Shown in pieces: positions 49,441-50,640 of a stretch of DNA of 64,000 nucleotides. The DNA lies in the NCBI GenBank assembly GCA_910575585.1, contig CAJTGF010000003.1:79027-143026 (forward strand). The letters are read 5' to 3'. The DNA comes from Clostridiaceae bacterium. GTDB lineage: Bacteria; Bacillota; Clostridia; Lachnospirales; Lachnospiraceae. The translations under genes and the position numbers were made by a program. The notes beneath the pieces were generated by a model. The model saw only the letters and a list, made by a program, of their open reading frames with translations. It was not told the origin of the DNA and did no database searches. Numbering within the stretch: position 1 is the first letter of the stretch; every line of letters starts with the position of its first letter.

Positions 49441-49489
49441 TCCTAACCCGGATAAACCGGAACTTTAAATTCGTTATGTTGCTGTTTAG

Positions 49490-49721
49490 TTGAGTGAGCA
49501 AAGGCAGGGATTGTCGTGAGGCCAGTCAGAGGAGAGCTGTCCCGTCCGGGTTCAGATATGCCGAACATTCCGATGAGCCCAAAGCGGAAATCAGTCGGGT
49601 ATCAGCCCTCCTGATTTCCTGGTCTCATCTCCATGGCATATATTCACCCGGACGGGACAGCTCTCCTCTGCCTGGCAAAACCAGAATTCGCTGGCTAAGG
49701 TTTGCTCACTTAAGGTGGTTT
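49490..49721 (+). repeat. Large hairpin element, left copy
   Basis: A ~232-bp imperfect hairpin. Its outer ends are GAGTGAGCAAA (49492-49502) and TTTGCTCACTT (49701-49711). A perfect 25-bp stem joins 49527-49551 with 49646-49670. Further inward are ATATGCC / GGCATAT, GATGAG / CTCATC, and GGAAATCAG / CTGATTTCC. No protein gene is supported. It is the mirror image of the copy at 49885-50127. Confidence 0.85.
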
Positions 49722-49884
49722 CGGTAGGGGACGCTGCCTCAACTTTGCAGCGAAAAACAGCTTCTTTTTATGGCCTCAAGTATATTGTTGAGTAAGGTTA
49801 AAGTGATGTTGTTGGGAACCTGAAAGGATCTGCCGCCAAAGCAGTTATCTTTTCACTACAGAGTCGAAACAGCGTTCCCTATCA

Positions 49885-50127
49885 AAACCACCTTAAGTGA
49901 GCAAATCCCGGCCAGCGAATTCTGCTTTTGCCCGGGAGGGAAGGCAGGCTGTGTGCCGGGCGGGTGAATCTATGCCATGGAGATGAGACCAGGGAAACAG
50001 GAGGGCCTAACCCCTCCTGGTTCCCGTTTTGGGCTCATCGGAATGTCTGGCATATCTGAACCCGAACGGCACACAGCCTGCCTTCCCTCCCGGGCTCCGC
50101 CACAATCCCCGCCCATTGCTCACTCAA
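49885..50127 (-). repeat. Large hairpin element, right copy (inverted)
   Basis: Inverted relative to the left copy, from AAACCACCTTAAGTGAGCAAA (49885-49905) to TTGCTCACTCAA (50116-50127). Its main stem is a perfect 28 bp joining 49931-49958 with 50067-50094, and its sequence is unlike the left copy's 25-bp stem. The distal half (ATATGCC, ATTCCGATGAGCCCAAA, GGTCTCATCTCCATGGCATA) is almost the same in both copies. The inner 163 bp between the copies also shows a diverged inverted match (ACGCTG...GAAAA). Confidence 0.85.
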
Positions 50128-50189
50128 CAATACAGCAATTCTATTATTTTGCCATTTTGCGCAAGAAATCGTTCTTAAGGGTCTAATGA

Positions 50190-50379: not shown

Positions 50380-50640
50380 CAATAATTCAAAAGTGTTGGT
50401 TCGCCAACCACACCTAGAACAAAGGAGTTTGGCTCATGTGAGCAAATAAATCATAGTATAAGAAGACAAAAAGCGAAAGCAAAAAAATAAAGATACCAGA
50501 GACATATCGTACCTGTAGGGTAGCGAAGCATGTACTGCAAAAGAGGAATCTTTTTCAGCAAGCCTTTAGGCTTTGCCAGTAACAAGCCCTTATAGGGCGT
50601 GAGCAAGCCACCGGCTAAGCCGGTGGTTTTGACTGCGGGT
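50380..50640 (+). mobile_element. Short IS200/IS605-like remnant (no transposase or tnpB)
   Basis: Near the right end is a hairpin CCACCGGC-TAA-GCCGGTGG (50608-50626), just after GCCCTTATAGGGC and GTGAGCAAG. From memory this looks like the right ends, and the guide-RNA region, of some IS605-type elements in Clostridia. A TTGG-TTCG-CCAA hairpin at about 50397-50412 could be the left end. No gene is inside, so it would be an internally deleted or mini-element. Tentative. Confidence 0.35.

Follow-up and report, generated by a model that had tools for sequence, protein, structure and literature searches.

Two large hairpins face each other in the 64-kb stretch of DNA analysed here (the window), and their main stems, though different in sequence, both pair perfectly. 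Does selection on base pairing itself keep them so, as argued in the original prediction (which invoked a structured RNA or a DNA hairpin bound by a protein), or does another process? The answer considered reasonably probable here is a non-autonomous MITE-like element with a selected tip of ~105 nt (the head), on a stem that would be kept paired by one arm templating the other, without selection of its own.

Layout and insertion of the twin-hairpin element

The mobile unit to which both hairpins belong spans 738 bp of non-coding DNA (49446-50183), is flanked on each side by a TA dinucleotide and, as an ordinary twin form, has a flotillin-family gene to one side of it and a MupG-family gene to the other; the outline originally drawn (49490-50127) was slightly short. 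Its core (49479-50138) is one large inverted repeat, each half of which forms a hairpin between TTGAGTGAGCAA / TTGCTCACTTAA-type repeats, and the two hairpins are, as had been proposed, inverted copies (73% identity between halves over the whole core). The perfect 25-bp pairing claimed for the left main stem (49527-49551 / 49646-49670) was recovered; the right one is perfect as well, but extends over 29 bp (49930-49958 / 50067-50095), not 28 bp. The apical halves are alike, and the inner stem varies with pairing kept, in agreement with the earlier description. Exactly two heads, on opposite strands, were found in the window with the broader (R2) of two covariance models, the other of which (R1) had been built from 16 heads. 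The subterminal inverted repeat is long, but the outermost 33-45 bp of the element are weakly inverted. The parts are:

49444..49445, no strand: left TA, end of the CCTA target tetranucleotide, and copy 1 if TA is duplicated
49446..49478, plus: left end (LE), ACCCGGATAAACCGG...GTTATG, common to source-genome copies
49479..49502, plus: outer inverted repeat TTGCTGTTTAGTTGAGTGAGC..., from the inverted-repeat analysis of the window
49503..49700, plus: left hairpin, from repeat analysis and folding
49527..49551, plus: 5' arm of the left main stem, pairs with 49646-49670
49548..49649, plus: left head (conserved structured core), R2 match of 97.5 bits, E 4.6e-26
49646..49670, plus: 3' arm of the left main stem, pairs with 49527-49551
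49701..49713, plus: inner boundary repeat TTTGCTCACTTAA, from repeat analysis
49714..49892, no strand: centre, ~316 bp longer in the long form; an IS200-like copy lies in this region at other loci
49893..49905, minus: inner boundary repeat TTAAGTGAGCAAA, from repeat analysis
49906..50115, minus: right hairpin, inverted relative to the left one, from repeat analysis and folding
49930..49958, minus: arm of the right main stem, pairs with 50067-50095
49962..50063, minus: right head (conserved structured core), R2 match of 95.5 bits, E 1.8e-25
50067..50095, minus: arm of the right main stem, pairs with 49930-49958
50116..50138, minus: outer inverted repeat ...GCTCACTCAACAATACAGCAA, from repeat analysis
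50139..50183, plus: right end (RE), TTCTATTATTTTGCC...CTTAAGGGTC, common to source-genome copies
50184..50185, no strand: right TA, from the end comparison among copies

At ~50500-50640, the window also holds a remnant-like stretch of nested short palindromes (AAGCCACCGGCTAAGCCGGTGGTTTT) resembling the IS200-like right end in L295 and L306 (CCACCGGCTTCAGCCGGTGGTGG).

The source genome (6.1 Mb in 253 contigs) contains at least 144 head matches (150 candidates scored) and at least 40 places that match the core at the DNA level (40 candidates scored), so the window hairpins are not a product of chance. Beyond the core, many of these copies have ~33 bp of left end and ~45 bp of right end in common; in others, the ends have diverged. 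Three forms occur: with one hairpin (L072, L073, L074), the twin seen in the window, and a long twin with ~316 bp extra in its centre. Inspection of the frames in the window and in the long form L063 revealed no transposase. Several contigs of the source genome end near or inside these hairpins (for example, G000:C22:48-149, C62:88-189, C64:48-149, and C126:64-165); thus, assembly is probably interrupted by the element, and the copy numbers are to be read as minima.

Both ends were compared in the 21 copies listed with them, of 23 chosen (the right end assigned to L002 is probably part of a neighbouring partial copy). In 20 of the 21, the left TA has CC before it (L015 has TC), and 20 likewise carry TA after the right end (L076 has TG); the right-end sequence is TCTA in 17, CCTA in three and TCTG in one, with no duplication beyond TA. 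Relative to the ends, the core of 20 copies is oriented forward in six and reverse in five, the remaining nine being without a scored centre. One copy, L005, interrupts a reading frame; rejoining its flanks via one TA yields an open frame of 371 aa (...VYNPNSVVKAM... at the join), and no Pfam or NCBIfam model matched the 120 aa around the join. Another, L060, is nested in the head of a further copy, at CCCC-TA-AAGC, and also fits restoration of the empty site with one TA. The CCTA context on the left, the L005 frame and the L060 nesting point to precise insertion into CCTA, copying TA or nothing; TA duplication restores the empty site as well as duplication-free insertion at CCTA does. That the locus is a non-autonomous mobile element, as had been suspected, is borne out by copy number, defined ends, the interrupted frame, the nested copy and the single, twin, and long forms.

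IS630 elements duplicate TA. If the element were a TA-duplicating MITE of a DDE (IS630/Tc1-like) transposase in the source genome, with the hairpins as mere cargo, this would agree with the one TA restoring the L005 frame, with L060, which fits likewise, and with the three PF13358 genes in the source genome. However, the three PF13358 loci contain no convincing match to the first 22 bases of either element end, the preference for CC left of TA is strong and the ends are only weakly inverted; such an origin is considered somewhat unlikely. An autonomous relative with these ends was not found among the best 40 of 154 candidates of a source-genome search with LE and RE. When flank frames of at least 70 aa were compared all against all, the 25 largest clusters comprised common genes or element-internal frames and no transposase, and the one 3-kb TIR interval of G238 inspected (L278) contained housekeeping genes.

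IS200/IS605 elements encode a Y1 transposase that acts on single-stranded DNA hairpins, and they insert 3' of a fixed tetranucleotide without duplication. The twin might be a decayed or passenger form of this type, REPIN-like on a giant scale, with Y1 recognising the hairpins as single-stranded DNA and inserting 3' of CCTA, which would fit the CCTA left of 20 of the 21 listed insertions and the lack of duplication beyond TA. In a search for Y1 (PF01797), heads were present in four of 20 fetched Y1 loci, 16 being headless; in L294 (G005), two inverted heads enclose an intact Y1 gene. In the source genome, heads accompany three of 11 Y1 matches, each of them decayed: in L291 and L292 the gene is enclosed by a pair of heads, and in L293, at a contig start, a single head adjoins it. 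Y1 identity is supported by Pfam and by PDB relatives such as 2vhg and 2a6m. Against this origin, the Y1 units look like stand-alone IS200-like elements with their own ends and also occur headless (L295, L306). Among the nine head-bearing genomes of the source genus, five have a PF01797 match and four (G022, G024, G003, G016; G024 and G016 are 78% and 65% complete) have none, whereas five of the 17 head-free genomes do have one. We take the Y1 units, with their own ends and their inconsistent co-occurrence with the head, to be nested, a functional link being possible; descent of the twin from an IS200/IS605-type element appears quite unlikely.

The head: structure and distribution

The head is a ~105-nt structured hairpin tip with the consensus CATT.C - NNTGAG - C - CC ... 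GG - T - CTCANN - TCCA, set in a short helix (GTTATGCC / GGCATAA type). Its alignment (A3; 63 sequences from ~20 genomes) comprises one representative per group of similar heads (66 of 243), minus five doubtful ones (L128, L149:2963, L170:1275, L173:953, L233:2758), plus the two window heads. Throughout these 63 sequences the unpaired bases are near-invariant; the inner P3 hairpin is absent in some heads (those of G011; L273, L274, L275). Standard pairs occupy 92.3% of the 1686 pair cells, compared with 71.3% when shuffled (0 of 500 shuffles as high) and 34-41% when slid. Both sides have changed somewhere in 25 of the 27 pairs, and such two-sided changes occupy 387 cells; further pair types numbered 62, which is not beyond the shuffles (57.6; 43 of 500 as high). 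Strong covariation and near-invariant unpaired bases, together with head loops that the proposed arm copying has neither closed nor lost, make it very probable that the fold of the head is under selection. For the apical head, the claim that pairing is maintained by selection thus stands; for the main stem, arm copying explains the data better (see below).

G-U pairs are almost absent from the head (53 of 1686 cells, 44 of them in two pairs), and it is for this reason somewhat more likely that the head is read as DNA than as RNA. Relative to the commonest pair, 246 changed Watson-Crick cells are of the transition type and 140 of the transversion type. The alternative that head and stem are both selected as a structured non-coding RNA or transcribed regulatory element, the stems varying by ordinary compensatory mutation, is compatible with head covariation around fixed unpaired bases and with the more stable folding of the outer-to-inner strand of both hairpins (-135.1 vs -126.3; -158.6 vs -145.7). 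Yet the paucity of G-U, the many double changes of the transversion type and the fact that the two hairpins of the twin are antisense to each other speak against it, as does Rfam 15, which gave no match in the window at gathering score (only far-below-gathering matches at E up to 10). Selection of the whole hairpin as RNA is considered unlikely. We infer, with less certainty than for the stem (see below), that the head is kept because a trans-acting factor recognises it as a folded single-stranded nucleic acid.

With R1, the head was found in nine of 26 genomes of the source genus and in 12 of 299 genomes of a family sample (12 of 298 genera); with R2, an order sample of 392 genomes (174 genera) yielded it in 14 genomes from 8 genera, under stricter filters than in the R1 runs and with 10 candidates scored per genome. 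The two samples searched by covariance model, when merged and with one doubtful genome (G619) removed, place the head in at least 15 genera, with patchy distribution. Among the genomes searched, those bearing the head all belong to one family. By inspection, the G619 match (L251, E 4.4e-5) looks like a false one in a coding stretch, and that of G076 (L039) looks like a chance 26-bp match; neither was counted. Head matches per genome numbered 67 in G170, 34 in G238, 26 in G294 (one contig), 14 each in G145 and G260, eight in G159, five in G253, three in G226 and one each in G330, G037, and G050. In the genus of G170, five of 13 genomes have the head, G366 with 44 matches in one contig. In several related genomes, the DNA search still matches the apical part but no longer the stem. 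Phage and plasmid sequences gave zero DNA matches to the 676-base core, and 21 viral contigs sharing a 15-mer gave no R2 match. The genes around 103 copies outside the source genome are convergent in 29, co-directional in 46 and divergent in 18 cases, 10 copies lying at contig edges; no clear rule of orientation emerged from these (12 of 23 convergent in the closed genome G294).

The head rides on at least two different sets of ends, one of which also occurs head-free (L281, L282, L285). G238 elements with TAGGYAATTGCGAAA ends and 11-bp border repeats carry the head in L147 and L156; in head-free G238 elements with TAGGYAATTGCGAAA ends, the 11-bp repeats are exact in L282 and in a 55-bp copy in L278, and match at 10 of 11 positions in L285. 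Over 20 end pairs of the set found in G238, G022, and G007, the repeats are exact in six and match at 8 or more of 11 positions in 10, the maximum match between mismatched end partners, used as the control, being 8. As G238 elements with TAGGYAATTGCGAAA ends occur with and without it, the head is dispensable for transposition of at least one carrier. A 334-bp form in G238 (L279, L280, L283) contains a head with an extra inserted hairpin (..TAGTAATGTCAGTTTTTTGACATAGAGGG..). In another genus, the hairpin stem of L257 (G503) begins like those of G007 and G022 (GAGAATATTCTGA...), a likeness that suggests transfer between genera.

Pairing of the outer stems

Stems could be scored in 177 copies; a further 90 pattern matches were set aside, 76 because their stem could not be scored (false matches among them) and 14 because they lay at contig ends. 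Together, the 177 stems contain 6867 Watson-Crick pairs, 113 sense and 73 antisense G-U pairs, 256 other (transversion) mismatches and 163 gap columns. The excess of sense over antisense G-U leans slightly towards a folded strand, as selection for RNA would have it. The 21 scored stems of G170 have a mean length of 102 bp and are 98% Watson-Crick, although one mismatch in ~100 bp should be nearly invisible to such selection. Within a G170 copy, the median arm-to-arm identity is 0.991, whereas stems of different copies are 0.61 identical (0.56 with shuffled arms) and heads are 0.87 alike. By eye, these stems retain a weak common skeleton; they look homologous but randomised. The trend is the same, but weaker, in G294 (arms 0.917; stems between copies 0.61 vs 0.59 shuffled; heads 0.85), and arms that stay alike while their sequence changes are clearest in G170, G000, G016, and G145. 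G238, G007, and G022 show the opposite pattern or none: copies have common stems, and arms are 0.80-0.86 alike. Median arm identity in this lower range (G022, G238, G253, G260, G007) counts against arm copying.

Stems that are simply identical copies, a finding that the original prediction had set against its own reading, do occur within the source genome, where six classes of near-identical copies account for 63 stems, but not across genomes. The 57 nearest-neighbour pairs among source-genome stems differ by 50 one-sided and 11 two-sided changes, repeated events included; distinct changes within the six classes number 20 and five, respectively. In the 25-copy class of right stems, one position is C-G in 15 copies, G-C in six and mismatched in four, in both possible ways. 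Since one-sided changes outnumber two-sided ones among close copies, arm conversion, if right, lags behind mutation; one-sided changes coming first would also suit compensatory mutation in an RNA.

Both flanks are common between species in at least five pairs of loci. At L256/L245 (flanks 92.6% and 79.4%), 28 compared stem pairs include seven two-sided changes, four of them transversions, zero one-sided and 21 unchanged, plus a one-base indel in both arms; the outer 13 columns, where the stem is present in L245 only and partly mismatched there, lay outside this comparison. L274/L260 differ by four two-sided and seven one-sided changes, gap cells counted, the one-sided ones falling in the outer ragged part; their inner 18 bp contain two two-sided and zero one-sided changes. 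L247/L249 have nine two-sided and seven one-sided changes, and in L275/L273 the inner hairpin is nearly identical. These comparisons suggest that the stem at orthologous sites evolves largely in concert. In one intergenic place, L184/L227 (flanks 79% and 76%), long stems without clear similarity surround a head that is inverted between the two; this could reflect two independent insertions at one site. Spacer inversion is thus seen in the L184/L227 head and in the core orientation of 6:5 (11 scored), and recombination between repeats, or independent insertion at L184/L227, would look alike.

Several G170 stems, for instance at L178, L180, and L183, stop within about 25 bp of both flanking frames, as if grown to fill the intergenic space. 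The idea that insertion duplicates the target site in inverted form and thereby creates each stem could draw on this and on the near-complete difference of stems between copies, seen in G170, in G294 and, as judged by eye, in G159. The common skeleton of the G170 stems, the homologous stems at orthologous sites in genus g241, which change largely in concert, and the stems that source-genome copies have in common speak against it; inverted duplication of the target is largely refuted for the source genome, and the idea is highly improbable overall.

Arm copying would proceed during replication, with one arm of the stem templating the other (intra-hairpin template switching or conversion): a mutation would arise in one arm and, after a delay, be copied into the other, and template switching could also flip a segment between the arms. 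The two arms would thereby change jointly, and the head and its fixed internal-loop bases would stay constant. Arm copying is favoured by G170 arms that are ~99% identical within a copy, their stems being nearly randomised between copies; by intermediates mismatched in either of the two ways, an indel found in both arms and an inverted head at one orthologous site; and by the many double changes that are transversions, which cannot pass through G-U. Stems of ~100 bp at dozens of loci are poorly explained by ordinary selection because a single mismatch would hardly matter. Passages of PMC8604942 describe template switching that homogenises inverted-repeat arms and inverts spacers, and mention bacterial data in which transversions exceed transitions; PMC8794818 reports template switching that keeps hairpin stems paired. 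As arm homogenisation with spacer inversion is a published signature of template switching, covariation of the main stem needs no selection for pairing, and we infer that the long outer stem requires no selection in its own right.

Relation to known elements and implications

Judged by its features, the element appears to represent a new family of MITE-like element; no paper describing it was found in searches of the open-access PMC literature. Like MITEs, it has dispersed copies with common ends and, by inspection, no transposase of its own; a related autonomous element supplying the transposase was not found in the searches made. REP, BIME, and REPIN sequences, mobilised by RAYT transposases, are palindromic repeats with hairpins of 20-40 nt that are often arranged as inverted pairs, mobile and high in copy number. 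The element is likewise palindromic, often with two inverted hairpins, mobile and abundant, but its hairpins are ~200 nt long, its head has internal loops and its co-occurrence with Y1 is inconsistent. Correia and RUP repeats resemble the element in being short, non-coding, mostly intergenic and present in many copies, and in their defined ends, small or no target duplication and hairpin folding. The same likeness extends to bcr1, as described in passages of PMC2267715. Unlike these three, the element has a head conserved across at least 15 genera and carried on at least two end sets, one of them also head-free. The inverted repeats homogenised by template switching in PMC8604942 and PMC8794818, with which the long mitochondrial palindromes of PMC6649704 are grouped, share its near-perfect arms, changing sequence, double changes and spacer inversion; compared with these, the element differs in being mobile, in occupying many natural bacterial loci and in having a central segment that is exempt and conserved.

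More tentatively, and as a possibility held with less than even confidence, the head may be a selfish or host-serving signal of an undescribed kind, read in folded form (single-stranded DNA or RNA) by a putative factor and moving between unrelated transposon chassis, its stem kept by template switching locus by locus, so that some genomes would hold dozens to more than 100 natural records of arm copying. On the arm-copying reading, the element separates two causes of stem covariation that are commonly lumped together, selection for pairing in the head and arm copying in the stem, within one molecule and at many loci. Template switching in bacteria, its rate as well as its footprint, would thereby become directly measurable. 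The element also serves as a warning that covariation of a hairpin stem alone does not prove an RNA function. The head, structured and present in at least 15 genera, has no Rfam match, and its sharply conserved internal-loop bases may be used as bait for a binding partner.
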